From Asparagopsis taxiformis (taxonomy: Eukaryota; Rhodophyta; Florideophyceae; Bonnemaisoniales; Bonnemaisoniaceae), in contig JALQPE010000408.1 of the NCBI GenBank assembly GCA_030407315.1, forward strand, positions 24,820 through 88,819: a DNA stretch of 64,000 nt. The letters run 5' to 3'. Under the pieces are notes generated by a model. The model worked only from the letters and a program-made list of their open reading frames with translations, was not told the DNA's origin and ran no database searches. Shown one piece after another: positions 5,470-64,000 of the stretch (position 1 is the stretch's first letter; every line of letters starts with the position of its first letter). A program made the translations under genes and the position numbers.

Positions 5470-5728
5470 TGTTGCTCGCCAAGGTGGGGTTAATCTGAGG
5501 ACTCTACCTCCCGTTTACATCCCAATGTTCTACAATAGAGCAGTTAATACCTATCGGATAGAGAAGGAAAAACGCGCGCAGAAATGTTCGGCATAAGGCC
5601 GATGACGCATGGTAATATTGTGATTACAGTAAATGAAATTTCGATACAATACGAATAGCAGCTTGACCTCCTGGAGCGAATAGCGCATTTCTGTCCAGAA
5701 ATGGGCGGGAAGCCGGGTCCGCCCAACA
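5470..5728 (-). repeat. 3' LTR of gypsy element 1
   Basis: This 259-bp direct repeat differs from the other LTR (9410-9668) at about nine positions, so identity is near 96.5%. On the minus strand it starts TGTTGGGC and ends AACA. The chromodomain reading frame runs into it, so the pol stop codon lies inside the LTR. Confidence 0.93.
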
Positions 5729-18562: not shown

Positions 18563-21500
18563 ATGGGAAACGTCGTCTCCCGTCGTCGAAAAACTTCTCG
18601 CACCTCCATCCCGTCCGTTTCCAATATTCCCAGTGGCTCTGACCATGCCATTGACTTTTCGCATTCACCTGACACGCCGCGCAGTCGTGCCGAAGCAGAA
18701 TTGTTATCACTCGACACAAACCGTAACACCATTGCACTTGTAGGCATGGAGGGGTCTGGTAAGACCACCACTTTGCTCTCGATTGCTAGATCTGCAGATA
18801 TCTCTCGCGCTTTTAGCCAAGGCATATGGTTGATACGGATTTTTGATCATATGTCATTGCGCTCTTTTATACTTCATTTGCGTCAACTGGCTCATAAACT
18901 TTTCCCAGACTTTCTCGACTCTTTCGATAGGATGACTTCTGATGATCAATTTCATTCGCGCTTCGCCTCGGAACTGCTTACTCGCTTTTCTTCCACCAAA
19001 GTATTGCTCATATTTGACGATGTGTTGCTTGCCAATGATGACATTTACAATGTCATAGATGGAATGTGCAGCGCATTGCGCACAGTTCACAATACCCACT
19101 TCAAGATTCTACTTGCATCTACCGATTGGAAGCCTGGTAGAAGACCCATGGACGACGTAACCATCGATATGAACCCCGTACAATCCCATACGGAAACCGC
19201 AAAAAGTATCTTGTGTTTCCACTCATGTATTGATCCCGCCATTCTCGGGCTCATGTCTAGGCAAGACTTGCATGCACTCGACAGAATTATCAGTGCGTGT
19301 GGAGGAATGCCACTCGCTTTGAGCATTGCAGGCTCATCGATTCGCATCATAATGAACAACTCACAAGATGACTATGCCAAGAACGCTATCAAAAGCTACT
19401 GGGGATATCTCCAACACAATGTGGAAATGAAAACTGGAACTGATAGCGTCGAGTACATGCGATTATACGCACCACTTACGACAGGTTTGCAGATGTTGCA
19501 ACACACATGGCCCGTAGAAGACATCACCTTCTTTGAGATGTTTCGGTCCTTCTGTATCCTTCGAAAGAAGACTCCAATTCCTCTGCGCCCCCTCGAAATG
19601 TTGTGGCGAATGAAGAAGCAGAAAGTTGCCGATGCTGTGTCGATCTTTGCGAGTTGTAATATGGTCTCATTGGTTAGAGACGAGCACAGTAGATTTATCG
19701 GCTTGGATGTACATGATCTTATCCATGATTTCTCCGCACGCTGCGCCGAAAGCGAAGAAGGCGTCCATAAATGGCATTCTATATTGCTCGACGCATATTG
19801 TCAGACTTTTGAGATGTTGCAATGTCGTGAGAAGGATTTCACATGCAACGCGTGGTGGAATCTCACTAAGAAGGATTTGTATATGCAGGATAACGTTGTG
19901 CGACATCTGCTCGGTGCTGGAAGAATAAATCAAGCTGTAGCACTTGTGACGGATTACCGCTGGATACAGAGGATGAATCGGAGTTCGCGAGAGCCACCAT
20001 TTGCAAAGCTTCTGTCAGATATGAAAATGGTTGAGAGCTTCATTCTCCAACGTGAGAATTGTGAAACATCCAAGAATCTCTCTGCTGAGATTGCGCTCAT
20101 CATGCAGACTGTTGAACTGTGCATGGTACCGTATGGCAGTAGACATTATGGTGAGTGCACTTTCCAATTATATGGCCGGTTGGTTTCATTGCAGTGCAAA
20201 TGCAATCTTGTTGACAGAATGATTTGGAGCATTGAACATCATGCAAGAAGACCGTGGGTACGTGCTGGGTCTGGAGTGTTGAAATGTGCGACACTAGGAT
20301 TGAAACGGGTGTTACCTGTGAGCCACGAGCCGAAACAGCTAGACCTAGGCCTGGACAATCATGAATTAATCATCAGTGGAGTGAAAGGGGAACTTCGGGT
20401 AGTTTCACGCAAGGATGGATCTGAGGTTTACGCACTCGACCGATATTGCCCAAGTTTAGTGTGTTTCTGTGTCGACAGAAATTCTGGAGATATAATTGGG
20501 TGCACTTCGGAAGGGAATGTGACGATACTTCGCAACGGGCAAAGATTGCGCGCGTTTAAAGTCAGAAAATTGAATCAAGGAGAGAAGATATCTTGTATGG
20601 TTCCTCTGGCGATCGGGAGGAAGCTTGTTCTTGGCTGCACAACGGGACGGATGTTGATACTGGACGCATGCACTGGAAACACGGTCAAGGTAGTTGCAGC
20701 GCACACGAAGCGCATAACATCACTAACGACTGGTGTGAGTGAAAAGCTGCTCATATCGGCGTCTCAAGACCGAAGCGTACAAGTTTGGAATACGAGTACA
20801 TTCCAGGACAGCGAAAAAATATACGAAAGCGAGAATAGAAAAGTGATATGTGTGGCGTTAAGTCGGCAAGAATGTATGATTGCATTGGCGTTGAACGACG
20901 GATCTGTGCGTGTATGGGCTGTCGAACATCGGCGCGAGATCTATTCGTTTATGAATGTTGGTAGATCGAGTGTGCACAGTATCACGTTTAATGCGGATAG
21001 CACGATGGTTTACGGCGGTTGCGTCGATGCAATATGCAGATGGGACATGACAAAAGTGCAGAACGGGGTGGCAGAAGAGAAGGTGTTTACACATGATGGG
21101 ATGGGAAGCATTCAAGCGATTCAGATGAGCGAGGATGGCAAGGAGATAATGGCATTGGGGCGTCGAAAAGTCTTTGTGTGGGAGACGGAAGGATACGGAG
21201 TAGATCGGACATCGTTCCTCAACGAGGTGCACAACTTTGCCGTATCAGCAGACGACGAGAAAGTGGCGACCTTCAGCGCTTCACGGAAGACAATTGAAAT
21301 TCGACACGTGGTCGACGTGGCGAAACAAATGAATCGCGTGAATGGCAGCTTCCAGGACCCGGACATGGCGGATATGATTGGTCAGATGGCCGTGTCCAAC
21401 GACCACCGCTTTGTTGCTTATGCCAAGCGGCATGATGACTGCAACGTTTACGTCATCGACTTGGTCGAGTTCAGGGCCACAGTTCTTACCGGCTTGCAAC

Positions 21501-22648
21501 AATGGGCCGAGACGATGTCCGATTCTGCTCACAAGTTGCATGAATGTCGTGTGGTGAAAATTGCTATCAATGCAAGCGACATCATTACCGCCCATGTGCA
21601 TTTCCAGAAGGAGCCTGCTGCTGATGCGCTAAACCATTCGATATCATGGATGATGTCGACCGGTGAACAGCTGCCACAGCCTGTCGAGCATTTCTCTGCT
21701 TCCATTGAAGAAGAGCGGACCGTTTCTAGTCGCAGCAGACCGCTGCATTTGTCCTGTGAAAAGCTCAAGTACGATGAATATTCCAGCACCGTTGAATGGG
21801 AAGATGGCTCAGTTCTCGCTGCTATTGCCACTCTAGAATTCCATCCATGGAAAATTCACTTCTCTCCAACTCTGTCCCGTTTGTGGGTTCTCAGAAAATC
21901 AGGCGGGCTACACTATGTGGACTTGGTGGCTGAAGATGCACAGCTGCCTGAATACGAACAACCAAAACTGTTCACCATACCAGAGAATAGCGTGCCCAAT
22001 GGTCAAGCCGAAGCCTCATCACAGCCAAATAAGAAAAATCAGCCCAAAGTAACCGCATTTATCAGCCATGCCGGACCTGATAAACACACACTCGCCGTCA
22101 AGATCTACAAAGGGTTGAAAAAGTTGAACATTGCAACCTTTATTGATCTCATCGAATTGAATCCCGGTGATGACGCACCACAAAAGATGATTGATAACAT
22201 GGAATGTGCAGAAATATTCATCATCATCGTTTCGCCTGAATTTCCGGCACGAAAGTGGACGATGATGGAATTAATGTGCGCATTGCGACGGTACGATGAG
22301 GCGAAGCGTATGCACAAAGCAGGTCCATTGCTCATACCCATATTTTATCGACTCAATATTGAGCAATGTCGCAGTGATAACTTGTTTGATCTAATTGATG
22401 AGCATGGTGTTAATGTATTCAGTAAGGAAGGCTTCTTTGAGCGCCTGATGAAAAACGAGGTAACCGTCCAAGATGTTTCGGCAGCCATGAAGAGACTATC
22501 TAGGTTTACTGGAATTGAGAATGTTATGGGATTGACCAATTGCACCAATGATGAGCATGGACGGGAGATATTCGCAGAACAAATTGTGGATGCTGTGGAA
22601 ATTGCTATTAACAAGAGGGGAAAGGCAGTTGGTGTGCGGCAATCATAG
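18563..22648 (+). CDS. NB-ARC / WD40 / C-terminal TIR protein
   Basis: A single 1361-residue frame. The N-terminus, MGNVVSRR, fits the N-myristoylation signal (MGxxxS), implying membrane attachment. An NB-ARC NTPase follows, with P-loop VGMEGSGKTTT (about residues 56-67), Walker B KVLLIFDDV (about 145-153), a GMPLAL motif (about 247-252) and an MHD-like block VHDLIHDF (about 380). A helical linker leads into a WD40-type beta-propeller region from about residue 590 to 1130, with repeats such as LLISASQDRSVQVWN. The last 200 residues are a TIR domain (KVTAFISHAGPDKH ... FPARKWTMMELMCALRR); the Glu in MMELM aligns with the catalytic Glu of NADase TIR domains. NB-ARC plus WD40 is the Apaf-1 layout; plant TIR receptors instead carry TIR first and LRRs last. 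The likely role is a ligand-gated intracellular immune or cell-death switch, by inference. No LRR or CARD was seen. Confidence 0.93.
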   Translation: MGNVVSRRRKTSRTSIPSVSNIPSGSDHAIDFSHSPDTPRSRAEAELLSLDTNRNTIALVGMEGSGKTTTLLSIARSADISRAFSQGIWLIRIFDHMSLRSFILHLRQLAHKLFPDFLDSFDRMTSDDQFHSRFASELLTRFSSTKVLLIFDDVLLANDDIYNVIDGMCSALRTVHNTHFKILLASTDWKPGRRPMDDVTIDMNPVQSHTETAKSILCFHSCIDPAILGLMSRQDLHALDRIISACGGMPLALSIAGSSIRIIMNNSQDDYAKNAIKSYWGYLQHNVEMKTGTDSVEYMRLYAPLTTGLQMLQHTWPVEDITFFEMFRSFCILRKKTPIPLRPLEMLWRMKKQKVADAVSIFASCNMVSLVRDEHSRFIGLDVHDLIHDFSARCAESEEGVHKWHSILLDAYCQTFEMLQCREKDFTCNAWWNLTKKDLYMQDNVVRHLLGAGRINQAVALVTDYRWIQRMNRSSREPPFAKLLSDMKMVESFILQRENCETSKNLSAEIALIMQTVELCMVPYGSRHYGECTFQLYGRLVSLQCKCNLVDRMIWSIEHHARRPWVRAGSGVLKCATLGLKRVLPVSHEPKQLDLGLDNHELIISGVKGELRVVSRKDGSEVYALDRYCPSLVCFCVDRNSGDIIGCTSEGNVTILRNGQRLRAFKVRKLNQGEKISCMVPLAIGRKLVLGCTTGRMLILDACTGNTVKVVAAHTKRITSLTTGVSEKLLISASQDRSVQVWNTSTFQDSEKIYESENRKVICVALSRQECMIALALNDGSVRVWAVEHRREIYSFMNVGRSSVHSITFNADSTMVYGGCVDAICRWDMTKVQNGVAEEKVFTHDGMGSIQAIQMSEDGKEIMALGRRKVFVWETEGYGVDRTSFLNEVHNFAVSADDEKVATFSASRKTIEIRHVVDVAKQMNRVNGSFQDPDMADMIGQMAVSNDHRFVAYAKRHDDCNVYVIDLVEFRATVLTGLQQWAETMSDSAHKLHECRVVKIAINASDIITAHVHFQKEPAADALNHSISWMMSTGEQLPQPVEHFSASIEEERTVSSRSRPLHLSCEKLKYDEYSSTVEWEDGSVLAAIATLEFHPWKIHFSPTLSRLWVLRKSGGLHYVDLVAEDAQLPEYEQPKLFTIPENSVPNGQAEASSQPNKKNQPKVTAFISHAGPDKHTLAVKIYKGLKKLNIATFIDLIELNPGDDAPQKMIDNMECAEIFIIIVSPEFPARKWTMMELMCALRRYDEAKRMHKAGPLLIPIFYRLNIEQCRSDNLFDLIDEHGVNVFSKEGFFERLMKNEVTVQDVSAAMKRLSRFTGIENVMGLTNCTNDEHGREIFAEQIVDAVEIAINKRGKAVGVRQS

Positions 22649-40812: not shown

Positions 40813-42429
40813 ATGATTTCCACAACCATCATGTCCCTGCTTCTCGCAGCATCTCTCACTGCAGCTCTACCCTCCCCTGCAGTCCACCAAGACGCCCTCA
40901 CCCGGGTCAATTGTGAAATCTCCGCAAGATTCTTCGACGGAACTTGCACAAACCCCTCCAACCCCGCATACGGCCAGGCCACAGAGGCCGTCTTCAGTTA
41001 CATTCCAAACCTCTCTTCCGCAACCTTCTCCAGTCGTGGCCGCCCCGATGCCCGCCTCATCTCCAACGCCGTTTGCGATCAGGACTCCCCCGTCTTCAAC
41101 GACAGAAACCTCAATGAGCTCCTCGTCTTCTTCGGCCAATTCCTCGACCACGACCTCGTCCTCTCCGAGGCCGGCGACGAAACTGTCCCCATTCCTGTCC
41201 CCGCAGACGACCCTAACACAGACGTTTCCTCCCTCCCCTTCCGTCGAAACATCCGTGTCTCTGTCCCCGGCGAAGCCCCAGGCACCGTCCGCCCTGAGAA
41301 CCTCCTTTCCCAGATCATCGACCTCTCCATGGTGTACGGCTCGGATGCTGATCGTGCGAATGCTCTTCGTACATTTGAAGAGGGTCGCTTGAAGGTCAGT
41401 TCCGACAACCTCCTCCCGCTCAACACCGAAGGACTGTCCAATGAACCCAGTACTTCCGAAAACTTCTTCGTCGCCGGTGACATTCGCTCCAATGAAACTC
41501 CCATGCTCACTGTGCTTCACACTATTTGGGTGCGCGAACACAACAACATCATTGATGAGCTGTTGCAGAGCCCAACATTCAATGACCTGTCGGATGACGG
41601 TCTGTACGAATTGGCCCGTCGCATCAACATCGCACAGTTCCAAAAGGTTGTGTGGGAGGAATTCTTCCCCGCAATTGTCGGCAGGTCACTGCCTCGCTAC
41701 CGAGGATTCAACCCCAATGTGAACCCCACCGTCAGTAACATCTTCGCCACTGCCGCATTCCGCGTTGGACATACCATGGTCGGAGACGGTGTGCAGGTTG
41801 TCCAGGGGTCCACACGAACTGTGCTGCCCGTTACAGAGATGTTCTTCCGTGAGCAGAGCTTCTTCCGAAGCACTGGACTGGACTCTTTCCTACTTGGGGC
41901 TGTCACGACGCGCTGCCAGGAAATCGACAACAAGGTTGTCAATGTTCTTCGCAACGGCCTTTTCAGCAGTATCCCTGGGGTTTCTGGCTTTGATCTGATT
42001 TCTCTCAACATTCAGCGCGGACGCGATCACAACATTCCGTCGTACAATGAGGTGCGCGAGCTGTTCGGCATCGAGCGCGCACAGTCATTTGCGGACATCA
42101 CATCGGATACTGATGTGCAGGCGAGATTCGCATCTGTCTATGATGACATTGACGATGTGGATGCATTCATTGGACTAATTTCCGAGGAACATGTAAGCGG
42201 TGGATCTCTAGGTGTGACAATGAGGGCGATTTGGACAACTGAATTCACACGGCTGAGGGACGGCGATCAATTCTTCTATCTGAGGAACGGCCTTTTCAGT
42301 TCGCCGCTTCGTCGGGAGATTCGTCGTTTGAGGAGGCTGAGGGGAAGGCGCGGTATTTTCCGTGACATTGTACTGCGAAATACTGGATTAACACCGAGTC
42401 AAGTGCCTAGGCGGCCGTTTTTTGTCTAG
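40813..42429 (+). CDS. Secreted animal-type haem peroxidase
   Basis: An intronless frame of 538 residues with a signal peptide (SLLLAASLTAALPSPA). It matches the myeloperoxidase/peroxinectin superfamily: GQFLDHDLV with distal His about 113 and the adjacent Gln and Asp used for haem and Ca binding, AGDIRSNETPML with the distal Arg about 225 and a Glu about 228 that can form a haem ester, VREHNNI, FRVGHTMV with the proximal His about 320, and LNIQRGRDHNIPSYNEVR. The product would oxidise halides or phenols with H2O2 outside the cell. The C-terminus is Arg-rich (RRLRRLRGRRG). Genes of this family are known in Chondrus-type red algae and uncommon in green plants. With a secreted SOD in the same window, it suggests extracellular H2O2 production and use. 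Confidence 0.95.
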   Translation: MISTTIMSLLLAASLTAALPSPAVHQDALTRVNCEISARFFDGTCTNPSNPAYGQATEAVFSYIPNLSSATFSSRGRPDARLISNAVCDQDSPVFNDRNLNELLVFFGQFLDHDLVLSEAGDETVPIPVPADDPNTDVSSLPFRRNIRVSVPGEAPGTVRPENLLSQIIDLSMVYGSDADRANALRTFEEGRLKVSSDNLLPLNTEGLSNEPSTSENFFVAGDIRSNETPMLTVLHTIWVREHNNIIDELLQSPTFNDLSDDGLYELARRINIAQFQKVVWEEFFPAIVGRSLPRYRGFNPNVNPTVSNIFATAAFRVGHTMVGDGVQVVQGSTRTVLPVTEMFFREQSFFRSTGLDSFLLGAVTTRCQEIDNKVVNVLRNGLFSSIPGVSGFDLISLNIQRGRDHNIPSYNEVRELFGIERAQSFADITSDTDVQARFASVYDDIDDVDAFIGLISEEHVSGGSLGVTMRAIWTTEFTRLRDGDQFFYLRNGLFSSPLRREIRRLRRLRGRRGIFRDIVLRNTGLTPSQVPRRPFFV

Positions 42430-49305: not shown

Positions 49306-49487
49306 ACCGTTCTACAACGGCCAAGTCCCTCTACACGCATGGTTGCGTTCGCCGATGACGAAATTCATCCCAATAGGGGCCCAGTAAGGCAAGACATTTT
49401 AGAATGTAACGGATCTACCGTAACGGCTCAAGACGTTACCGACGCCTTGGAAACCTCCGACGACTCCGACACGTCGTCGGAAAACTG

Positions 49488-51275
49488 ATGACGGGGAGTG
49501 AGGTGTCGCACTCCCGTCAGGAGGTAGAGCGATTACGCTATTCGGTGGACATCTCACCACAACCACCTCTGCAGGAAGAGGCCGCAACTCCCTCTAGGGA
49601 CCAAAGTCTTTTCCAGACACCAACCCCTTCGGGTTCCCCCACAGGGACTCGAACCTCAAGGCCGAAAGCCTCATGCCTGCTTAAGGCCGCCCATTACGTA
49701 GTAATGGGTTCCATCGGACTGGATCCGTCAGTCCTCACGCCAATGCGTATGGTGATGGACACCGGGCCCGGACCGTCGGTCATCCATGAAAGGAGCTTAC
49801 CCAGCAACTGGGAACAATTTCAAGTCCCGACGGGAAAAGTTCCACAACTGGCCGATGCTAACGGCAATCCTCTTCGGATAAAAGGCAAGATAATACTGTC
49901 ATTACAGTTAGGCCACAAGTCCTTTGAGGAAGAATTCTTCGTCGCGCCTAAGTTGGCCGTACCCCTCATCTTGGGAACTGGGACAATGAATACCCACGTA
50001 GATGCAATTAGGTGCCGGGCCCAACGAATTGATATTCACGACGGCGGGTCGATAGCTATCCTAGTGATGTCGACTACGCGTAAAACATCCCCCACCCTTT
50101 CGTGCTACGTGGATGCCTCGCGACCCTCTAATGGGATTAACTTAGACCGCCAGCCTCATGGCATTCGGTTGTCACAAAGTGTGAATATTCCTCCGCGGAG
50201 CCAAGTGACAACTACTGTTGTATGCGCCGGTGGCGGCTTGAGTATACTCTCACCGAGAGATCGGATCCTTCAACGACATTGTGTCTCTATCCCGAATGGG
50301 GTTGCGGAAGTCATCCCGCGACAGGAATTCCTGACTATCTTAACTAACTTCGGTACATCCGACAAGTACCTCCCAAAGGGGACAGTTATAGGCTATGCCC
50401 TTCGGGCACCCGAACGGCCAATGCGCCCCATGGCTCTCAGCTGTTCTACCCCTTCCTCCCAAGAGGCCTCCACTATGGTGACTACTCTCCATCAGGAGCA
50501 AGAGGCCGAGGCCACACAACCATCAAGTTGGAAGCAAGAAGTCTCTCTAGACCACCTTAGTCAAATCCCGTTAAGGGAACGCATCCTTAGCATGCTATCT
50601 CGACACGAGTCTATGTGGGATGGATCCCTAGGGGGCATCCGCGCCACGGAACAACGAATCGACATCGTCGAAGGGAGCAAGCCTAGACGGCAACAACCCT
50701 ACTGGATGGGATCCGCTCGTCGAGAGATTGCCCGTAAGGAAATAACCAGCATGCTGGAAAACGGAGTGATCGAACCGTCGACCTCCGAATGGGCTAGCCC
50801 AGTTGTGCTTGTCCCGAAGAAGGATGGTAAATTACGCTTTTGCGTCGACTATAGGGGTCTTAACGACATCACTGTCAATGATGTCTATCCCCTTCCAAGA
50901 ATGGATGATTGTATTGACTCCCTTGGAGATGCCCAGGTGTTCACCACCTTGGATTGTAATTCTGGCTATTGGCAGATACCTGTTGCACAGGACGACCGTG
51001 ACAAAACGGCATTCACCTCCCACTTGGGGACATATCGCTTTAAGCGTTTGCCCTTTGGCTTGAAGAATGCTCCGGCAACGTTTCAACGTGTCATAGACAT
51101 TATTCTAAGCAGCGTTCGCTGGCAGACCTGTCTGATTTACTTAGACGATGTAATCGTATTCTCTCGGGACGAGGCCGAACATCTCCACCATGTGGACCAA
51201 GTACTCTCCCTCCTACGGGAAGCAGGTGTCACGTCTGTGTTTTCGGAAGTGGACGCGGACGTCCAGTCTCTCTAG
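49488..51275 (+). pseudogene. pol of gypsy element 2: protease and RT, truncated
   Basis: A frame of 595 codons. The retropepsin motif is VMDTGPGPSVIHE, followed by PLILGTG. After a linker comes gypsy RT: ITSMLENGVIEPSTSEWASP, VLVPKKDGKLRFCVDYRGLN, FTTLDCNSGYWQIPV, FKRLPFGLKNAPATFQR and the catalytic IYLDDVIVFS. At LLREAGVT (about 51231) the element ends, and the last 14 codons are encoded by an unrelated 274-bp repeat. RNase H and integrase are missing. The break coincides exactly with the start of the repeat unit, so insertion or expansion of the repeat removed the 3' half. Confidence 0.9.
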
Positions 51276-52067
51276 TACGGGTCCTAGTCGGCCCCGAGAT
51301 TTACTAGAACAAATGAACGTCCGCGTCCAAAAAAAATAAAAATTTTTTGGATGCGGACGTCCACTTTCTCTAGTACATATGGCGGAATACTAGGGCCCGA
51401 CATCCACTTTCTCTAGTACGTTTGGCGGAATACTAGGGCCCGACATCCACTTTCTCTAGTACGTTTGGCGGGATCCTAGGGCCCGACATCCACTTTCTCT
51501 AGTACCGTCTGTGTTTTCGGAAGTGGACGCGGACGTCCAGTCTCTCTAGTACGGGTCCTAGTCGGCCCCGAGATTTACTAGAACAAATGAACGTCCGCGT
51601 CCAAAAAAAAATAAAAATTTTTTGGATGCGGACGTCCACTTTCTCTAGTACATATGGCGGAATACTAGGGCCCGACATCCACTTTCTCTAGTACATATGG
51701 CGGAATACTAGGACCCGACATCCACTTTCTCTAGTACGTTTGGCGGAATACTAGGACCCGACATCCACTTTCTCTAGTACATATGGCGGAATACTAGGAC
51801 CCGACATCCACTTTCTCTAGTACATATGGCGGAATACTAGGACCCGACATCCACTTTCTCTAGTACATATGGCGGAATACTAGGACCCGACATCCACTTT
51901 CTCTAGTACGTTGGCGGAATACTAGGACCCGACATCCACTTTCTCTAGTACATATGGCGGAATACTAGGACCCGACATCCACTTTCTCTAGTACATATGG
52001 CGGAATACTAGGACCCGACATCCACTTTCTCTAGTACATATGGCGGAATACTAGGACCCGACATCCA
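51232..52067. repeat. 274-bp duplication followed by a 43-bp minisatellite
   Basis: A unit of 274 bp starting cgtctgtgttttcggaagtg occurs at 51232 and again at 51506. Each copy carries a near-perfect 19-base inverted repeat around an A/T core (aacgtccgcgtccaaaaaa ... ttttttggatgcggacgtcc). It is followed by 43-bp units (atccactttctctagtacat, then atggcggaatactaggaccc and gac). The first copy has about three such units, the second about ten. Each 43-bp unit has an internal hairpin CTAGTA-N12-TACTAG. Units differ by a few bases (catatgg or cgtttgg; ggacccgac or gggcccgac) and are homogenised in the second array. Confidence 0.92.
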
Positions 52068-52604
52068 GTATACAATATATCAGCGAAAACCGGGAGGGAA
52101 GAAATTACAGCGGATGGTAAATTCAGGGCCCATATCGGACCGTATTTTATTCTCTCATTTAGGAAACTGCTCGTATACAATACGTCTCTCTAGAATAGGG
52201 AATACATATCTGGTCAGAATAGGAAATAAATACCCGGTTAGAATAGGAAATAATATCCCGGTTAGAATAGGAAATACGTATCCAGCCAGAATACAAAATA
52301 CCTGTCAGCATATCGTCGATCACCCATCTCCCTCACTATCGCGTTCTCCCTACCATCCGAACGCCATGCACCACCATCCGCACATACTGCAAGAACCCTC
52401 ACGACCTAGATTACAAAAAATACGCTCCTTCCCAATACCATCCCCGCTTTCCTCGACACCACCCCAGCCCATTAAATCATCAAGACATCAAACACGAACA
52501 TGGTCAGCAAAATCTTACACCACTTGAAACGCACTCTCACTTCTATCGTATGCCCCAAAATATACACATACCAGAAACACCTCACAGCTTCATTCCCCAT
52601 CTTC
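52068..52604. other. Spacer with possible 3' end of the micro-exon gene
   Basis: A short degenerate series of gaatagg.aat.c.gtatcc... motifs lies near 52190-52300. On the minus strand there is one more possible intron (donor ggtatgtgta just after the micro-exon frame's stop). No gene is otherwise seen. Confidence 0.4.
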
Positions 52605-53691
52605 CTACATCCCTTCTTCACTCTCCTTCAGTCCTGCCGTTCCTGCTTCACCACTCCTGCATCACATACACAACATCAGAATCAACCACAACAGTCAGAT
52701 CAAAAGCAACGCTTACCACGACAGATATCCTAGAAACTCCCTTACTTACCTCTCCGAGAGGATGACTGAATCATCCATCCTACACAAAATACAAACCATG
52801 ATCCAAAAACCTTGCAATGAATAATCAAAGTCAGCAGTCCATATCTTCGCAAAACAAGTCTTGGTGCTCAGTAAAACTTACCTTCTGTCATCAACATTCC
52901 TGCATCATCTACACAACATCGGAATCAACCCACAACAGTCAGACTCAAAACCAACCTTCCATCACAGCATACTTTCAAAACTCGCACACTTACCTTCGCT
53001 CCACACAATACACACCATGACTCAATAGGCTTCCAATGAAAAAATATCGCATCAACGGAAATAGTCAGACTCAAAACCAACCTTCCCTCGCTGCTTACTT
53101 TCAAAACTCGCACACTTACTTTACCTGTTCCATCCTGCACACAATAAAAACCATAAATCACGTAATCGTGTAGCCAAGAAAAGTAGTCAGCATTCCGCAT
53201 CTTCGCACAACCGGTCTGGGCGCCCAATGTGACTTACCTTCCGTCATCACTATTCCTCCATCACCTACGCAACATCGGAATCAATCGCAACAGTCAGATT
53301 GAAAACCAACGTTTCCCTCGCTACATACCCTGAGAACTCGCAAATGTACCTCTCATCCATCCTACACACAATACAAACCATGATCCAAAAACCTTGCAAT
53401 AACAATAATCATAGTCAGCAGTCCATATCTTCGCAAAGCACATCTTGGCACTCAATGAAACTTACCTTCCGTCATCAACATTCCTGCATCATCTACACAA
53501 CATCGGAATCAACCACAACAGTCAGACTCAAAATCAACCTTCCCTCACAGCATACTTTCAAAACTTCACGTACCTCTCTTCCATCCTCCGCTCAATACAC
53601 ACCATCAGTCAACAGGCTTCCCATGAAAAATATCGCATCAACGGAAATAGTCAGACTCAAAACCCACGCTTCCCTCAACGCATACCCTCGA
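52605..53691 (-). repeat. Tandem array of intron-exon cassettes
   Basis: About 1.1 kb of diverged direct repeats. The block catgatccaaaaaccttgcaat occurs at about 52797 and 53380, caacggaaatagtcagactc at about 53053 and 53639, and atcggaatcaa...caacagtcag three times (about 52918, 53272, 53505). The larger period is about 585 bp with sub-units of about 225 bp. Repeat boundaries coincide with the splice-like sites on the minus strand. Confidence 0.85.
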
Positions 53692-53898
53692 GGGTAGAGG
53701 ATGGAACGAAGGTACGTGCGCGAATCTTGATCAAGATTCGCGCACGTACAAAGCAAAGTCGGTCAAAGAAGATCAGTCGGTGATGAGGGCGGAGTGGAGC
53801 CTGCGGCGTCGACCGGACAGCTTTCAGCGTCCGCTTAAGTCTTGCTGTGCATACTCGAAATCATCGCCGGCAGTGAGATTGAGTATGGCCCAAGCCAT
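52605..53898 (-). CDS. Candidate micro-exon gene in a tandem intron array
   Basis: On the minus strand, GT...AG introns alternate in length: about 90, 104, 94, 103, 126, 94, 102 and 93 nt. They separate exons 53574-53585 (12 nt), 53466-53483 (18), 53350-53361 (12), 53238-53255 (18), 53125-53134 (10), 52994-52998 (5), 52882-52899 (18), 52750-52779 (30) and 52605-52656 (terminal). Donors are mostly GTAAGT or GTAC, and each intron has a TCTGAC or GCTGAC branch-like site and usually a TTGTGTAG or GTGCAG acceptor. Joined, the frame stays open to a TAG. All junctions but one are phase 2 (AG|G), and the product repeats a 10-residue unit like RMDERNSDDG. A possible first exon is 53855-53898, with ATG and a donor in matching phase. 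The function is unknown. The exon map is inference; the splice-like pattern is plain in the sequence. The 5-nt exon is the weakest call. Confidence 0.5.
53712..53749. other. Perfect 38-bp palindrome
   Basis: Every base of 53712-53749 pairs with its partner about the centre GATC; each arm is GTACGTGCGCGAATCTT. As RNA it would fold into a very stable hairpin. It lies in the proposed first intron or leader of the micro-exon gene. A rho-independent terminator is not expected in a eukaryote. Confidence 0.95.
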
Positions 53899-54346
53899 GG
53901 TCTCTGAATCCCCGAACAATGAGATCCGGATCGAGAACAACGAATATAAACATATAATCATATATATGAGAATCCATTTGCTTTCCTTACATGATCCGTG
54001 GCATATCCGCTGTAAAGCACATTCAGATTCCACGAAGTTCGGAAATAAAAAAGTTTATTATTACAAATGAATTAATTGAAAATTCATCTCCCAGGGCGGT
54101 CGTTCGTCCTTCCATGCACACGTTGCCAGCACGCAATGTGATGTAACAGTTGGAAATGATTGAACTCTCGGTTAAATTCCACCGTTGGGATGTCAGCTGG
54201 AGTGAGCACAAAACTACTACCCAAAAAACTACGAACACGTTACATTCCAAGTCTCGAAAGCACCACAAAAATAAAATTGGTCGCATCTGGACGGCACAGT
54301 CTCCCCTGTTCAGCTCGCAATCCTCCCTTTTGCGTCAAAACTCGAC

Positions 54347-57300
54347 ATGGAATGCAAGTATGAAGGGTGCTTCTACTACTGCGTAGATGCTTATGCGCTC
54401 GCGCTGCATGAGCGAACGTGTCGCTACCGTTTCAACCCCTCTCCCCAACATTTCAACAACGCTCGTGTCCCTGCCGTCACCCATGAGCCTGCTCGAAACG
54501 GCGACCATGATTCCCCGCAACCCAGCTCCCCAGACCCAGAATCTGGTCGTGCTTCCTCCAGCGACTCACCCTGTGACGCTCCACTGCCACCAACCTCAAC
54601 CCCCTCCCGCGCAGACCTCCTCGTGCAATCCCTCGCCGCCAGTCTCACAACCCTCGAGTACAAGGCCGGGCGCTGGCCGCGTGAGCGAAGTCATCACCAT
54701 CCTACAAGACCCCGCATTCTCCCTAGAAAAGTTCAACAGCGCCGTTCGCACCGTAGAAGAATGTCGCCACGTTACCGCTTCCATGGTCGAAACACATTTC
54801 CGCACCGAAGGTTACAAGAGCCACATCATTCCAGACAAAACTGGTAAGTACTCGGCACAGCTGTACCTCCGCGACCCAGTCGACATGCTCCGCAGGCAGT
54901 TAGCACTGGCTAACGACCAAAATACTCTCTTCCACCCCTCCCCACAGACCGCCCCAGACGGCACCGCAATATTTTCTCATCCCCTACACACAGAATTCGC
55001 GAAAACGCTGCACCAGGTTACTAGACAGCGCGTGCAGCTCTCGGAAGATCCACAGGTCGTATGGGCAGAGGAAACTGATCCCACACCTTCCTCCTTTGCC
55101 GGCCTCCTCCAAGTGTACTCCGACAAGAGCAGCACAAGCCTCAAGAGCTCCGCAATCGTCGCATACCCCATACACGTCACACTGCTCAACTTCTCCGCCC
55201 CCCTCCGTCGCCACTGCATCCGTACCGGCCTCACCATCGTCGGGTATCTTCCGTACATTGTTAACCCTTCGTCCAACGCCTTGTTCGGTGATGAAATGCC
55301 GACAACCTCTAGTTCTGCTAGTCGCGCTCGCAAAATTGATATTCTTCATAAAGCACTCGAAAAAGTGTTTTCGTCCCTATCCACCGCGTTCTCTTCCGGG
55401 TTCCCCTGCACAGACTCCACTGCAACTGCCCGCCAATGCTTTCCCATCCTAGCCAATTATTGCTGCGACTTTCCAGAGGCCAAAGAGCTGTCATGCACTC
55501 GCAACAGCACTACCACCACACATCCCTGCCACCGCTGCTACATCCCCGCCACTCAACTTGAATCCACCGCGCCACACCAGCCCCGCTCCCTCGATGATAC
55601 ACGCTCTGCACGCCAAGAGAGCGCTCAGGAGCATACAACTGCTCCGCTCGAAGCTCTCCCCTCCTCGAACAACACTCTGTCCTCGAATCGACCGCTCTTT
55701 TACCCACCAACAGTCCCCTAGACCCCTACAACATTTTCTCCTTCGAGCCTCTGCACAATCTCCACCTCGGCATCTCAAAGCTCATCAAACAGTGCATTGT
55801 CCACCGCCTCAGCTCCCCAGACCTCACCACCACCACTGCCTCCCATTCCGGGACACCTCGCACCTTCAAGAAGGTGAAAAAATCCATCCTCGCCGGCTCA
55901 AACAGCATTCTGTCCGCTATCGAACGCGACTACTACATCACCGGTCTTCATGTCGACTTCTCCAAGGGTGAGAAGGGCACCAATTTGAACGGCCTCTTCA
56001 CGGAGGACGGCATACGCGGCATGCTCGCAGCCAAAGACTATCACCATGTCGACATGGTGTTCCCTTTCATCGCAGCATTCATTGACACATGCTGTGACGA
56101 AGTAGAGACAGCCCCCCTCACTTCCATCTGCACGCAATACTCTGACCTCGTCGCATGGGTCATGAAACGCGGTCGCATCAAGCACTGGACTGCCGCCGAA
56201 CGAAAGCCTCCAGAACTCCATTTCCTATTTCAAACAATCAATGCTCTCCACCCTCGGCCCATTCCACACCACAGGTCTCAAAACTTTCAAGTTCCATCTT
56301 CTTGACCATCTTCCCGGTGACTTGCAGAGATATGGCGCCCTGGAACACATTGATGCAGGCCCCTACGAACACTCGCATCTTCTGTTCAAACAGAGTTATA
56401 GGAAAACCTCTCGAAGGCGCTCCACAGCCATGGAAGAGACTATTCGCCACATGGAATTCTCCTTGGCCACTCCAACTGGTCATACCCCATCGAACACATT
56501 GGGAAACCCACGCATGATATCGCCCACAGACGGTGCAGTACTCGTTCGCGACGGATTCACCGTTGCACTGCACGACTTTGCCTCCCTGCTGCCCGATGCA
56601 ACCCTCCTCGTTGCAGATATCGACGGACAGCCCGATCCTGCCACTCTTTTGCCTCTGCACAACTCCTCGTTCCCGTCTGGCACCATAACGCTATTCCAGC
56701 AACTCGGTGACACAGCTGCACAAGCGTTCCTCACCCTCGCTAGACTGCGCGCCACGGCAGAAGGCCCTCCAATACATGACATGGACATTTCCGTCACCGT
56801 GGTAAAGTCCGCCTACGTCATGGGAGGGTACGTCCCAGATGCCGACGACTTTGACCCGCACAGTGGCATGCTTCGCCCCACAAACGTGTCGAGGCACAAG
56901 CAGCAGCGCGCGTCTTTGCAACTTCATCATTCGGCCCCGCAAAGAGATCGCAGTACTCCTTTGTCGTCATCTCCGGAACTGCCGATGACTACAGAACCAT
57001 ATGGGTAGGGCGCGTCCTGGCACTGGTACGCCTGCAGTCTCCAAACCTGTTTCAACCTGTAGAACTCGCTTTCGTTCAGTATATGACCTGCTTTGCCCCA
57101 AAAACCGCTGTGGAAAAATCACTTGGGTGCATTTGTTTAAAGTGGTCCACATGGGACCCGGACAACGGATCCGTTGACAGCAATGACACTGCATCCCACA
57201 GTGCAGGTGGTCCTTGGTTTGACCTCATTCCTGCATCTACTATATCTGGCACCGTGCACATCGTACGAAGTAACTTTCCAGTCAAGCCATTTACGAAACA

Positions 57301-57388
57301 AATGCACTGGTCGGACCACCGTTTCTATCTCAACCGCTTCTACACCAACACTGATTACCAGTTCACAGATGATAATGAAGAAGAATAA
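54347..57388 (+). pseudogene. Plavaka-type (CACTA-like) transposase, frameshifted
   Basis: The frame changes at about 54670, 55725, 56250 and 56960. The ATG at 54347 opens a Cys/His finger (MECKYEGCFYY ... HERTC). Later blocks match Plavaka-family transposases: LLQVYSDKSSTSL followed by AIVAYPIHVTLLNFS and IVGYLPYIV; the Cys cluster DFPEAKELSCTRN ... HPCHRCYIPATQL; FEPLHNLHLGISKLIKQ; and FKFHLLDHLPGDLQRYGALE ... GPYEHSHLLFKQSYRKTSRR. The C-terminal part (to 57388) includes CICLKWSTWDPDN. Several frameshifts mean this copy is dead. The family is best known from fungi, so a red-algal copy is of interest. Terminal inverted repeats were not found. Confidence 0.82.
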
Positions 57389-57465
57389 ATCTAAATCGCA
57401 GCACTCTATTGATAATGTACTACATGATAAGCCTTCTAGTCAACGTCACATTTACTGCACTAATT

Positions 57466-59750
57466 TCAACCATCCTCCATTACGCCAAAACCGTTATCAG
57501 CAGTGGCTGGATGGCGCCGCTCCATGCCCCCATACTGTGGGGCATTGATTTCGACATTCAGGTTTGCACTCAGGTGTCCAGCATATGGGTCAACGACGAA
57601 AAGTTCTGCGCCAATTAGTCCTTGCGCAATCACACAATCCATTACAGCACCGAGGTTTGACGTAATATGCGATTGAATCCAATCCTCGGACACTAGAACA
57701 AGTGATGAGCAGCGGTTTACATCATCAACGACATGAACAATTCCAGACCCCTCTCCGCTTTGCCACACTTCAACAGCCTCTCTCGTCACAGTACGGCTTG
57801 CAAACACATGCCGTGACTGTGCACTAGTCCGCTGTTCGCTCTCGACAACGTCCGTTTCTTCCCTTGCTTGCGAGCCTTGGAGACAAGACATGCAGTACAC
57901 CACCATACCAACTAATTGCTGAAAAGCTACCCCCACATATTGACTGTACCGCCTTGTAAACTCCTTCTGCCGTGCACCTCCTTTCCCCTTCGGTTCATCC
58001 AAACACTCCACAGTAGTCACTAGCCAAGCATCCAGGCGCGCCAGCGTTAGTATGCTCGTCTCTATGTCCATTACTTGTTCTGGTCGTATCGAATAACCCC
58101 TGAAGATGTCCAGCACATTCACAGCTACTCGGTTGTTAAACCATGCATCACCATTCACTTCCATTTCGAAGCTGTCAGGAACCATGCCTTTGCTGTATCG
58201 CAGCTCTGAGAACGGTGCCGTTCGCCACCTCCCCATATCCAAATCACCGTTGCTTTCCCGTTTCAAAAGCTTCTCAGACGCTTCGCGCTTTTGATCCTCT
58301 CGCTCGTCCATCTCAGCTCGCGTCGTCAGCATCGTGCATCTAGACATTAATTTCGTGTACCCCAGCGAACCGAACAATCTGTCCCTCGCATTACGCTTCC
58401 GTGCACTCATCACGTCGGACAGTTTCTGCGTCACCTTCACTTTCAATTCCTTGCTCCCCGCCACAGCCTCTTGACAGCACACACGCTGCTCCTCATCGGA
58501 AAACACATCACACCACGGACTTTGACGCAGTACGTGTCGCACCAAGTCATTCAGCAGATCACTCTCGTCCCTGTACGAAGGTGTATACCACTGCAGATTC
58601 TTGATGATATAGCCCGGAGGGGTAGCAATATATCCTACACCGTTTTCGCTCCAAAGTGTCCCTTCTACCGGCTCTACCTCGATGGTACGTCCAGTCCAAC
58701 GTCTCTGCGTTTGTTCCGCTATAGGGTCCAGCTCCATAGTCTCGTTCTTGCACCACTTTGTCAGGTTTTCCTCAACCGCCCTAAGAACTCCAAGGTATTT
58801 CACAGGAATGGCTTTCTGTATTTTCGACTTACCGCCACCGTGATCACTGATTCTACCTGTTCTCGCAATTGCAGTAAGGCTGGCATTTTCCGCCTGCAGA
58901 GTTTCACCTTAGCCTCCAACGCAACTATCTCCGTGGTGAGCGCCTTGTTTGCTATGTCCTGGCTAAACACTTTTTTTTCCAGCTCCGCGATCTTCTTCTT
59001 CTGCGCATTGATGCGACTCGCCATTAAATCGATGGATTCCGGCGGATGCAACCTCTCTGCCCTCACCGTCCCCCCATCTCCCACGCTATCGGGATTATGA
59101 TGTCCTCCATCGGCAATAGCCTGACGTCGCGGGGGCGTTACGCGCATATTTGGCACCAATGACAGTCTGTTGTGACGAGGCCCGCACTCCGGCTGCTCTC
59201 TCCCCTCAGTACCACCTGACCGCCGATGATAGTTGGCATCCTGTGAACGTTGCTCAGAAACAACATCCCTTGCCGCTATCCTCGGGTCCCTGACTGCATT
59301 ACCTGCTGGGGCTGATGTACTCGGCATAGTTGGCGCAGTGGGGGTCACAGCCTCCAGTGTCTCGCGAACCCCGGCTGGGACTCGTCTGCAGCAGCACCTC
59401 CGCATCTGCCAACCCGGGAGGAACTACCTTTGCCATAGCACTCTGCCGCAATTCCAACATGTTTTGAGCCACTATCATGTCATCATCATGATGTTCACTG
59501 TCCCTGCGAGCACGCTTGCCTCGGTCAAGCCCCATCTCTCTCCGCGCCGTTCCTCCTTCCTCACTTTCTCGCTGCGGATCCCCAGTTCTGCGCCGGTCCG
59601 TCTTGCGACTACCGGACCGCGGTTCAATGCTGCCGGTAGGCCCAGACCGCTTCTTCGCACGGGATTGTCGGGCACTCGATACAGCAGCTGCTGACCGGGT
59701 TTCTGGAGGCCCGGAGGCTTTGGAGCTTTCTTCGCAATACGCGGCGGCAT
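57466..59750 (-). pseudogene. Coiled-coil accessory gene beside the transposase
   Basis: Starts MPPRIAKKAPKPPG at 59750. At least three frame changes (about 59650, 59400 and 58810) are needed to read it through. A basic, Arg/Ser-rich N-terminal region with a patch RGKRARRDSEHHDDD is followed by a clear coiled coil (ASRINAQKKKIAELEKKVFS ... LEAKVKLCRRK). The 445-codon C-terminal part is mixed alpha/beta with a conserved-looking Trp-rich start (NGVGYIATPPGYIIKNLQWY). It converges on the transposase with under 80 bases between stops, as second genes do in CACTA-type elements. That link is inference; the family is not recognised. Confidence 0.6.
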
Positions 59751-60410
59751 AATGAAGCCTTCCCGGAAGCGATGGAACGATTGAGTTGCACGAGATACAA
59801 AAAAGATTGCTGTATAGTGTCGGTAACCACAACGGTCTGCGATGAACGTTCAGGTCAGGTCAAGTACCGGAGAATACGCCAACAGCCCAGATTGTATACG
59901 GTAGGCAGTCATCAACAGTATTTAATGAGGTACAATTACAGCTGTCGAGCTAGGCCGCGAGCACCCCTATGTCCGGAAGACGTCCTGATTTGAATTAAAA
60001 TTTGGGCTATTCTCAAAAAACATGCACATGTGAACATGTTTTGAGATGGGGGTGTGCCGTACGGCACAATCGACCCGCTGAAATCGATGTTTTTTGCAAT
60101 ATTTTTTTCTGCCCTGAATTGTAGAATTTCTGGGCTGGACAGCAATGCAACTGAGCTGGACATCCACCGGGCGTCCATTTCAACTTGGTCGTGTATTTTG
60201 CATCTGCACGCATAACAGCAACCAAGCAGTCAGGTTCACTGCTCGGACGAAGTGCACCTAGAGTGTGAACGATTGGTTTTTGACAGGCGAGTACTGCTCA
60301 ATAGGTTTCACCCTGGACTAATGGTGGCTGGACATGCTGCATTATATGATATACTTCAACTCTGGAACGTAGCTTTATTTGTAGTCGAAATGAAAACATC
60401 TTTCGTGACC
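59751..60410. other. Spacer with hairpins, no gene
   Basis: Two inverted repeats stand out: tctcaaaaaacatg at 60011-60024 pairing with catgttttgaga at 60035-60046, and the perfect 16-bp palindrome tgtgccgtacggcaca at 60053-60068. They lie downstream of the SET frame and upstream of the accessory gene (both minus strand), so they may mark a 3' end or promoter. No open frame of note. Confidence 0.55.
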
Positions 60411-61021
60411 CTAATTCCATGCTCTAAACGCTGTCCCATAATGAACGTAGAGCTCCTGCCCCGGACGGATATCGCGGATTGCACGTACTACAATGATCTT
60501 CGGATTTTCTAGGTCCTTCGCCTTGAGCTTCTTCCCCGTCGAACCGCTGCTGTAGTTCTCGACAAACTCGACGTTGGCCATCCGCCTGGTGTCTTCCGCC
60601 GGAGTGTCCTCACCTCGCAAATACCGCGGGTCGTTGATGAACTGCGCCGAACAGAACGGAGCCGGAACAATCCAATTGGATGCTCGATGTTTTCGTCGTC
60701 CTCCGCTGTTGCATACAGCTTGATGGCATACATCAAGAATGTTTCCTTCGTTATCGCCATGTGACCCTCTCCGTACGCGAACCTCATCGACTCCTTGCTC
60801 ATATCAGAGTACACAACAGTTCCGTAGTATGCACATACTTCGTCGCCAACATTAAATGTCTGTTCAGCGAAGAGCCCTCTTCCTGCATTTGGATGCTTAA
60901 TCAGCGATGGTCGAACGCTCAATTTTTTCGCAACACAATCGTGTGCCCGCATCACGCGAGGGTTTTCAGTTTGCAACCAGCGGCGCAGGGAAGGTGGCCA
61001 ATAATGTACCGGTTTTTCCAT
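60411..61021 (-). pseudogene. SET-domain module, frameshifted
   Basis: C-terminal part of the gene that begins near 63613. The start of the SET fold is visible as LSVRPSLIKHPNAGRGLFAE, then NVGDEVCAYYGTVVYSD. After a frame change near 60660 come CSAQFINDPRYLRGED, MANVEFVENYSSGS and RAIRDIRPGQELYVHYGTAF, the last being the GEEL-x-x-x-YG end motif of SET methyltransferases. The classic NHxC pair is not clear: INDPR and ANVEFV sit where it would be. SET enzymes methylate lysines using S-adenosylmethionine. It is upstream-linked to a DNA methyltransferase in what looks like one original reading frame. Confidence 0.75.
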
Positions 61022-63613
61022 GTGCTCGTGCGACGCAATCGATCGACTCTGGGCACAGCTGCCAGAGGTACTGCCGAATATATTTCGGGAACCTCTGGTA
61101 CAGGGGAAGGCCAGGTGGGGGTTCGATGATCCTGCGTTCCCTCTGTACGCATCGTGACAGAGGGGGACGCCAAGAACTTCTCAGCACTCTGTTTCGCTTC
61201 TGTCGTGACCCTCATGTCAGTGTTGTTTGAAAGAATTACACGTGACATGACTGCACACAGCTTTGGAAGCGATCGTGCCACACACAATTTGTCCATGTCA
61301 CTGCCGACGAAAACACGGTGCTCAGGCAAGCTCATAGCTGCTTTTCCCGTTGCGAAAGTGCCAGAGAATGGATCGACAACAATATCACCAGGCTGTGAAT
61401 GCTGGCTGATCAACTCCATCATGAGAGCGACGCTCTTCTGCTCTGCACGAACTCTGACCGTAGCACCGGTTGTGCTCCTTGTTCGCCACACCATCTCATT
61501 CGAATCGATGGCGGGGCATTGATGGTGACGTTGCACCACGCCGGGTACGTGCCGTCCATGTATCCGTGGTTCCTATAGGCCACCATCTCGCTTCCGGTCT
61601 TGAACGGAACACCTCGCTTCCAGAAGTGGATAGCGACCTCTGCCATGTTCATGCGTTGGTACCTCTTCCGCCCCGGCATTTGATAGAGGTGCCCAGGTAG
61701 TCGGACAAACAACAGAGGTACCTCGTCAACGAAGAAAACTGAATTCCGAACGACGTCCTCCTCCTCGTCCCGTCCTCCTCCTCATCCGCACTTTCTTCGC
61801 CACTGTGCTGCGATGCTTCGGAGTCCGAATTCATGGACGTAACCTCTTCTTCATCCGACCCGTCATCACTGGCAGCAGCATCGGTTGGGCCTTCTGACTG
61901 CGGTCCTTTGTACGTTTCCAAGTAATGGAACCATTCGTAGAACTGCAAAACGGAGCAGAACACGATGCCGTGGCCACCGGGGCGCAACAGCTCGTCAAAC
62001 ACTTCGATGCTAGCCTGCATATCTTCTGCAGTTAGCCTGTCGTACGAAGAGTTGGAATCGTTCCTCTTACGACGAACATTGTAGGGCGGATCAGTCAGAA
62101 TGAGCTGAACGTTGCCCGTGATGGGCACGTGTTCTCGGCTCTCGTCGGCACTGACCAAATCTTCGAAAGGGACGTCGTACACCCGGCAATACTGACTCAT
62201 TTTCGAAAGAAAGTCCTTTGCGAGAGCCTGCCCTTCACTTTCCTGCTCTTCTGTCGCATGGGGTGACGGTGACGGGGGAGACGGCCCTTGGGCAGTAAGA
62301 CTGGTCCTCCCAGGTCCAAGTTGAAGCCTGGTTGTGTGTGTCTTGTCGACGGAACCAAACCTCTCCCTCCTGTGTTGCGACGAGTGGGAGTGTCATCAAC
62401 CGGCTTGGGGACCTTTTCTGCGTCCGCGGCTTGTGGTGCGGGCGGAGGACAGCCATAACGTCTTCGTCGAGGGTGTCAAAAGTACGCTGGCAGCTTGTCC
62501 GGATTTCCGCTTGACAAGTATATTTCCAGCGCCCCCCAGCGGTCGGACTCCGGCCAGGTGTACAGGTCCGGGTTGACGATAAGAAACTGCAACCGGTCGA
62601 AGAACTTCCTCACAAGGTCCCTAAATGCACTGTGCTGCGCACTGGTTCTTGTCTCTACTTTTCCACCATATCCATCAGGATGAGATAGGGGAGCTTTGTC
62701 GTGGTAGAGATCTAGCTTCTGCTCCATCGGTGCGAATAGACCTTCATCGAGCACGTCAAACCAATGCTCACTGCTGTCGAAAATGATGTACGGCGCCATC
62801 AACTCTTCGAAGCTGGGAAAACTTTGCGGCGAAGGCCACATCGGTCCAAGCATGGTATAAAACTTGAACCACGTAACAAGCTCGATTAGTAGCTTTTCCG
62901 ATGGGCTGGGACGCGTGCGGCTTCGTTCCCCTCTTCGGCCGCGTCGCCTATTCGGCGACGCGGCAGGTTCTTGTTGTGATTTCGGATGATAGACAACGCT
63001 TGGAAATACATCAATACCTCGAACGTTTCCGGTGGAGCAAGAACGAAGGCGCTTGGTTCCCGCGCTGCGGCGCCTGTAGTGGCGAAGGAAGCATGTTACA
63101 TCCAATAAGGAAGGTCTGCGGCACGATCCCAGAAAGGATGCAGTGCTCAACCCATTGCCCGATACGCTCATCCTGTCTTGAAAACTCGGCAATCGGTAAT
63201 GCCAGACGAACAATCTGCTTGGCTCGCTCAACGTTCATCTCTGCCATGACGATTTCGGCAACATCCGCCTCGACTCCAGCATTCTTCGAACGACCGCTGA
63301 AGGCCATGCTGAGTCGACCTTGCAGCGCCGCAAAATTGTTCTTCCGTGCCCTGCGCAACCCAAGCGCCAAGGTCCGCGTATGTGAAACCTCCCGGCTTGT
63401 CCGTCAAGTCTGCGAAACTTGAGTGGGCGAACAAATCCAGCAAGAGGCGGAGGAAGTCTTTGCCAGCGAGAGTAGTTTCGCGGGCGGCGCGACCTACGTT
63501 TCGACGTGTACCCATGTCACTAGAATCCTCCCAAGGGCTAGCGGGTTCGCGCAGAATTGGCACGGTTGCGTCGTCAACGATCGGATGCTGTTGCGCCTGC
63601 GCTTATTCGTCAT
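61022..63613 (-). pseudogene. Permuted DNA aminomethyltransferase, frameshifted
   Basis: Read from about 63613 (ATG, MTNKRRRNSIRSL) with frame changes near 63500, 63300, 63000, 62480, 62200, 61755, 61515 and 61170. The N-terminal 450 residues are of unknown type (for example KLLIELVTWFKFYTMLGPMW, FDSSEHWFDVLDEGLFAP). The catalytic part has motif IV VQLILTDPPYNV, then FDELLRPGGHGIVFCSVLQF, an acidic linker, a target-recognition-like segment, and motifs X and I in RAEQKSVALMMELISQHS, then PGDIVVDPFSGTFATGKAAM. The order IV before I marks the permuted beta class that makes N6-methyladenine or N4-methylcytosine in DNA. Such enzymes are bacterial/phage-like and occur in some eukaryotic mobile elements. 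It continues into the SET module. Confidence 0.78.
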
Positions 63614-64000
63614 AATGGAATGAGTGGAATTCGGTACAGGATGGCGACCGCTCGGCGAGACAGTCAAATTTGACGACGTATCTCGTGACGTTTGCACTCT
63701 TTCGTGAGGAACACTGGTGTGATATCGAACGGAACAGAGTATACGGGTACACAGCACTGGAAAGGTCTTGAAACCCGTAACCGGTGTAGGTAATAAGTTG
63801 TGACGGATACGTGGAGTAGAAAAAATATTAAAAAAGATTGTGATTCCCTGTCTTTGAGTGTTGTACTGCACGGCCGCCATGGCGGCTGTGACTGCAGTCA
63901 CATAGGTTGTCACAGGTGAATCACGCTTACCAGGTGAGCGACATCCGGACGGCCACTGGGACATGGGATGTCAGCTCAGATGCATTGCTGGCCAGACCAG
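63614..64000. other. Window end, no gene seen
   Basis: Upstream of the methyltransferase gene. It contains palindromes gccgccatggcggc (63873-63886) and gtgactgcagtcac (63888-63901). Transposon ends could lie here or beyond the window. Confidence 0.45.

Follow-up and report, generated by a model that had tools for sequence, protein, structure and literature searches.

The window analyzed here is a 64,000-nt stretch of a contig from the red alga Asparagopsis taxiformis. On its minus strand, between positions 52605 and 53898, lies a row of short introns separated by very short exons. To the right of this array are three large genes, each interrupted in the window copy: on the plus strand a gene for a Plavaka transposase (54347 to 57388), and on the minus strand a second gene (57466 to 59750, start assigned by hand) and a third encoding a DNA methyltransferase fused to a SET domain (60411 to 63613, limits assigned by hand). 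To its left are a subterminal block of about 10 copies of a 43-bp tandem repeat (51631 to 52067, found with Tandem Repeats Finder) and, on the plus strand, a 33-bp terminal repeat (CGTCTGTGTTTTCGG..., 51506 to 51538). In this setting, the array belongs to a transposon rather than to a host gene: it lies in the interior of a DNA transposon whose transposase is of the Plavaka (EnSpm/CACTA-like) type. An Rfam scan of the window returned no match above cut-off.

The transposase is a single uninterrupted frame of 1012-1013 aa from its ATG in five of the six copies read (all but L031). Its frame in the window matches PF18759 with 81.3 bits against a curated cut-off of 26.3, and genome-wide all 123 rows for this domain (123/123) are above cut-off. 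The second gene, whose product starts MPPRIAKKAPKPPG, is uninterrupted over 761 aa in 4/6 copies read; its two larger pieces in the window had no Pfam match above a cut-off. The third gene is intact in the one copy read (L037:1762-4959, minus strand), where it encodes 1065 aa with a DPPY-type methyltransferase domain (PF01555, 57 bits) and a SET domain (PF00856, 29.5 bits). A single frame may thus combine a DNA writer with a histone writer. The protein collection contains a 99% identical entry (P0003); apart from this entry, none of the 7,992 scored candidates passed the threshold for this protein, and no relative among viral contigs matched six short patterns.

Read on the minus strand, the array can be parsed into nine GT-AG introns with the lengths that the sequence-only reading had claimed, each containing one CTGAC site (nine occurrences in all). 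The predicted introns 1 to 9 are located at 53586-53685 (100 nt, although the real donor may be at 53854), 53484-53573 (90 nt), 53362-53465 (104 nt), 53256-53349 (94 nt), 53135-53237 (103 nt), 52999-53124 (126 nt), 52900-52993 (94 nt), 52780-52881 (102 nt), and 52657-52749 (93 nt). Between them are predicted exons 1 to 8, again of the claimed lengths, at 53574-53585 (12 nt), 53466-53483 (18 nt), 53350-53361 (12 nt), 53238-53255 (18 nt), 53125-53134 (10 nt, but 15 nt if the next donor is used), 52994-52998 (5 nt, doubtful and perhaps skipped), 52882-52899 (18 nt), and 52750-52779 (30 nt in the window), followed by a predicted terminal exon of 52 nt (52605-52656). Predicted splicing joins these pieces into one open frame ending in TAG at 52605, as had also been proposed, and the product counted from the first micro-exon would be GMEERNVDDGRMDERNSDDGRMEQRRNVDDRRMDDSVILSERSGEAGTAGLKESEEGM, followed by the stop. 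A candidate first coding exon (53855 to 53898, minus strand), running from an ATG at 53898 to a GA that precedes a GTATGC donor, is in phase with the array. Of 47 distinct short arrays, a sample drawn from the best-scoring copies rather than at random, 44 agree exactly over the 51 nt starting at this ATG.

Several parts of this parse have alternatives. The 10- and 5-nt exons represent one of two solutions: a donor 5 nt further on (AAA followed by GTAAGT in the window) would give a 15-nt exon, which is in frame only if the 5-nt exon is skipped, and a G at 53120 in 28/47 distinct copies turns this alternative donor into AAG followed by GTAAGT. Introns 2, 4, and 7 have an additional AG 9 nt upstream of the used acceptor. 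Its use would extend the following exons to 27 nt and, as worked out by hand, would open a second frame with a GDAGMVMTEGWMR repeat, in which a rarer base at 53582 (2/47 distinct copies) creates a stop. Between units, the downstream AG is better conserved than the upstream one (0.92 vs. 0.76). Exon 8 is 30 nt long in 43 of the 47 distinct short arrays, 12 nt in three, and 14 nt in one; the 18-nt addition looks like a transposon excision footprint, because it carries the inverted repeats GGATGA..TCATCC and TCTC..GAGA. Intron 6, the longest, looks like a fusion of both intron types in which an 18-nt exon was lost. A perfect 38-bp palindrome (53712 to 53749) lies immediately upstream of the array, close to where long copies have their extra units, and is possibly the scar of a deletion or of another insertion.

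An ancestral two-exon, two-intron cassette had been proposed as the unit of tandem duplication, and copies with more units do exist. The cassette consists of a 12-nt exon, an intron of ~90 nt, an 18-nt exon, and an intron of ~103 nt, and within the window 52640-53089 matches 53239-53676 at 82%. Since the units are duplicates of each other, the regularity of the array counts as one fact and not as nine independent ones. Measured from anchor to anchor, the array is 1481 bp long in the window, whereas longer forms measure 2067, 2400, and 2422 bp; the shortest, at 1349 bp, is a deletion copy (L025), and the remaining loci range over 1436-1500 bp. The long form occurs in L051, L052, and L071, with the same extra-match pattern on 15 further contigs. 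Its older units are 68-77% like those of the window, and in L051 and L071 several of their splice sites, including some acceptors and one donor, appear by eye to be lost. Another locus, L034, has one extra 586-bp block in its duplicated array.

Matches between the window and the rest of the genome occur at 40 places with 95-100% identity, the window included (40 candidates were scored out of 1,618), and the expanded array of C2332 contains an extra alignment at 92%. For a 34-nt segment of the terminal exon there are 1,237 matches in 141 Mb at up to 2 mismatches, and the terminal repeat has 2,738 genome-wide matches at up to 3 mismatches; these numbers suggest two ends per element, of which the left one was read. 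This left end, which begins CGTCTGTG, is sharp at 51506 and is common to 12 other loci, each differently flanked, so that a precise terminal repeat is found together with differing target flanks. The sequence of the element is continuous from 51506 to 60193 in two copies (L031 and L032), the spacing from 53600 to 63980 agrees on four contigs (C242, C1726, C1833, and C1851), and three copies match one another for ~1.4-1.5 kb past 63980. The element is therefore at least 12.5 kb long, and probably about 14 kb or more. Its right part includes a ~170-bp repeat in three copies, one of them inverted (L036:38-207, 1334-1501, and 5313-5500). Adjoining the full left end is another left end of this transposon, which is truncated (51232-51505). 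The window element thus seems to have its place within a second copy's repeat block, and that second copy in turn seems to interrupt a reverse-transcriptase frame (49410-51275, PF00078).

This organization bears on one of the origins first suggested for the array, namely a family of self-spreading introns (introners) inserting as units. The many near-identical intron units within one genome speak for it. In 39/40 array-matching loci (about 40 best places per search), however, transposon sequence is present on both sides, and no unit was seen alone; in the other locus (L057), the upstream side of the element is absent within the fetched stretch. Stray single units could be missed, because these loci are the best-scoring places. 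Since a DNA transposon that has a precise end carries the array along, we consider independent insertion of introns highly improbable.

The introns of the array look genuine, and their signals point to splicing by the host. As in U2-type spliceosomal introns, they have GT-AG ends, a branch-like motif, and a donor able to pair with the host U1. Two U1-like host genes score 68.7 and 67.8 bits, just below the Rfam cut-off of 69.5, and both have ATACTTACCTGG at the 5' end, which is complementary to CAG followed by GTAAGTAT and can pair with the array donors. Among the 47 distinct short arrays, the GT/AG bases are substituted at 0/36 sites (P = 0.010 vs. other intron bases), and one acceptor is lost in L025 through a deletion that also removed one micro-exon. 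Donor, branch, and acceptor together are variable at 8/153 sites, compared with 107/753 in the remaining intron (Fisher P = 0.0013; P = 0.010 without CpG sites), and exons at 13/175 (P = 0.017 vs. introns). In the same copies, 46/275 sites of the 5' flank are variable, but only 10/124 of the 3' flank. In a sample of 13 loci, those compared with the transposase, the counts are 9/275 (5' flank), 5/124 (3' flank), 5/175 (exons), 5/153 (signals), and 49/753 (introns); flanks are here as invariant as exons and signals, and the contrast may therefore reflect rapid change in the introns rather than slow change in the signals.

Comparison between units within one array gives a further view. In L071, which has six units, the signals of the b-type introns are 92.5% identical vs. 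69.9% elsewhere, a level reached by 64 of 20,000 random placements. By element, conservation between b-type units is 0.92 for the 18-nt exon, 1.00 for GTAAGT, 0.93 for CTGAC, and 0.83 for the acceptor, against 0.70 for the rest. The a-type signals, in a test using 5/11 aligned sequences, are not significantly above random placements, whether the downstream AG (1,483/20,000) or the upstream AG (4,443/20,000) is taken. A genome search with a 25-nt junction pattern, allowing 2 mismatches, found no processed copy with joined exons, which weighs little against splicing because such copies need not exist. The variation within and between arrays suggests selection on the splicing of the array.

Two other explanations have to be weighed against these patterns. 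CACTA elements carry tandem repeats near one end, and the array, being itself a series of tandem repeats near one end of a CACTA-like element, might represent repeats bound by the transposase that resemble introns by accident. We consider this very unlikely, as a separate block of 43-bp repeats already lies nearer the end of the element, and the 18-nt exon and each of the three intron signals stand above the rest of the b-type unit. Alternatively, the array may be a neutral passenger, i.e., an ordinary two-intron stretch that turned into a tandem repeat and whose signals are intact merely because the copies are young. The 95-100% identity of the best 40 places is in keeping with this, as are the splice sites of long arrays that appear by eye to be broken (although the pattern of extra matches recurs on the 15 further contigs mentioned above) and the faster change of array introns relative to the transposase (49/753 variable sites vs. 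28 changes in 3,039 bases). It sits less well with signals that are less variable than neighboring intron bases in the very same copies, and with b-type signals retained across units that have diverged by ~30%. On balance, we regard neutral persistence as unlikely.

Whether the array encodes a peptide is a separate question. In one reading it would be a true gene for a small accessory protein encoded by the micro-exons, MAWAI...(M-D/E-E-R-N-x-D-D-G-R)n..., tolerant of repeat number and perhaps acting as a DNA-binding helper, for which TnpA of maize En/Spm offers a comparison. The upstream ATG exon in phase with the array and the lower variability of exons relative to introns both favor this reading, and the claim that the array stays in frame holds for 28/30 distinct copies, which remain open as far as the stop when parsed with 10- and 5-nt exons. 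The claim fails for L025 and L026, which are out of frame, and, under the same parse, for the duplicated array of L034, where the frame is lost. Retention of the frame in any case carries little weight, as a 30-nt exon pair can be duplicated without shifting it. Exon substitutions (sites from the 47 arrays, classified by hand) have a nonsynonymous to synonymous ratio (N:S) of 11:2, which fits neutrality and would be rare at an omega of 0.2 (P = 0.002), whereas the 28 transposase changes across the 13 loci are distributed 12:16, indicating purifying selection (P = 0.0005); the difference between the two is significant at P = 0.018. Only one of the four exon length changes in the 47 arrays is a multiple of three, and the alternative acceptor opens the second frame described above. 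A search of 5.8 billion proteins that required shared 5-residue words yielded one candidate and no homologue of the spliced peptide, and the candidate start, MAWAILNLTAGDDFE, has no signal-peptide core by eye.

A protein gene of this kind is accordingly doubtful in our judgment. A peptide gene is possible from the sequence, as is the rapid evolution proposed for it, but the exon changes carry no sign of protein constraint. Given the N:S ratio, the second open frame, the frame loss in L034, and the lack of a relative in the search, a peptide, if made, would be little constrained. There is no direct evidence for the suggested role as a splicing-based diversity generator. On the plus strand, a protein reading through the array was set aside as driven by composition; its variable sites have no three-base rhythm (47, 41, 40), the frame at 53233-53697 is open without frame change in 5/47 distinct copies, and that at 53415-53783 in 31/47.

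We therefore favor, with a probability of roughly 60%, the explanation that the array is a tandemly expanded, spliced minor transcript of a multi-gene Plavaka transposon, multiplied by transposition, in which splicing is kept and the peptide is not. The array would be a minus-strand transcription unit of this giant element, divergent from the transposase gene, in which a single two-intron cassette was duplicated in tandem, as the sequence shows. The host spliceosome would remove the introns, as suggested by their signals, the possible U1 pairing, and the reduced variation of the signals, and the micro-exons would be spliced into a short RNA. To judge from the substitution patterns, the ability to be spliced would be maintained, with no fixed peptide. 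The unit-sized length variants suggest that unequal exchange or slippage between units adds and removes cassettes, and the precise end, differing flanks, and about 1,237 copies suggest that the array as a whole multiplies when the element transposes. As to purpose, we conjecture that the element's own expression benefits from a spliced RNA, acting as a divergent leader or regulator. In a more specific and rather speculative version, the intron bank itself would be the device: repeated splicing of the divergent transcript might mark the RNA as a genuine messenger or recruit splicing-linked factors, leading to less silencing or more expression, with the exons serving only as spacers.

The element has counterparts among known large transposons. 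Giant En/Spm (CACTA) families, 16-20 kb long and containing 4-5 ORFs, are reported from the red alga Chondrus crispus (Kojima et al. 2013, cited in PMC6431247). They resemble the present element in their red algal host, CACTA-like affiliation, large size, and possession of several ORFs instead of one or two, whereas the passage citing them does not mention an intron or micro-exon array. Fungal Plavaka (PMC12730594) and the giant Plavaka repeats of Amoebidium (PMC11244446) likewise combine a PF18759 transposase with large size and cargo genes, and the available parts of these accounts do not mention a micro-exon array. According to PMC12730594, fungal termini are TGT..ACA in PlavakaA and CATCA..TGATG in PlavakaB; the left terminus found here (CGTCTGTG...) is unlike either, and the element is therefore filed in neither group.

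The array itself is similar to the micro-exon genes (MEGs) of Schistosoma in its numerous very short exons, most of them divisible by three in length (PMC10526429). MEGs, however, belong to the host, encode secreted proteins that carry signal peptides, and have introns of 100 to almost 5000 bp (PMC10526429), unlike the present array, which is part of a transposon, has introns near 100 nt, and shows no evident signal peptide. It also resembles introners and introner-like elements (e.g., PMC7789003) in that near-identical introns are multiplied in a genome, but in the loci examined here they stay together at one site inside a DNA transposon. Searches of open-licence papers turned up no comparable transposon-borne micro-exon or intron array.

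If our explanation is correct, the array would be unusual in that its splicing is maintained independently of protein coding, within an element whose three large genes are uninterrupted in intact copies. More than 1,000 copies, with variants in unit number side by side, would offer a natural experiment on intron multiplication, and the same copies bear on how micro-exons of 5-18 nt are recognized and on whether splicing benefits a mobile element. Should the intron bank be the functional part, 1,237 arrays with an assumed nine introns each would amount to some 11,000 transposon-borne introns, which may exceed those of all host genes in this intron-poor red alga.

Some observations concern the host rather than the transposon. 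As befits a red alga, the host assembly has 13 phycobilisome-domain matches, 11 of them on contig C469. Elsewhere in the window, a plus-strand gene at 18563-22648 encodes, in a single frame, a 1361-aa protein that combines NB-ARC and TIR domains with WD40-type repeats, an immune-receptor-like architecture in a red alga. Another plus-strand frame, at 40813-42429, encodes an animal-type haem peroxidase (PF03098, 413 bits) without interruption.
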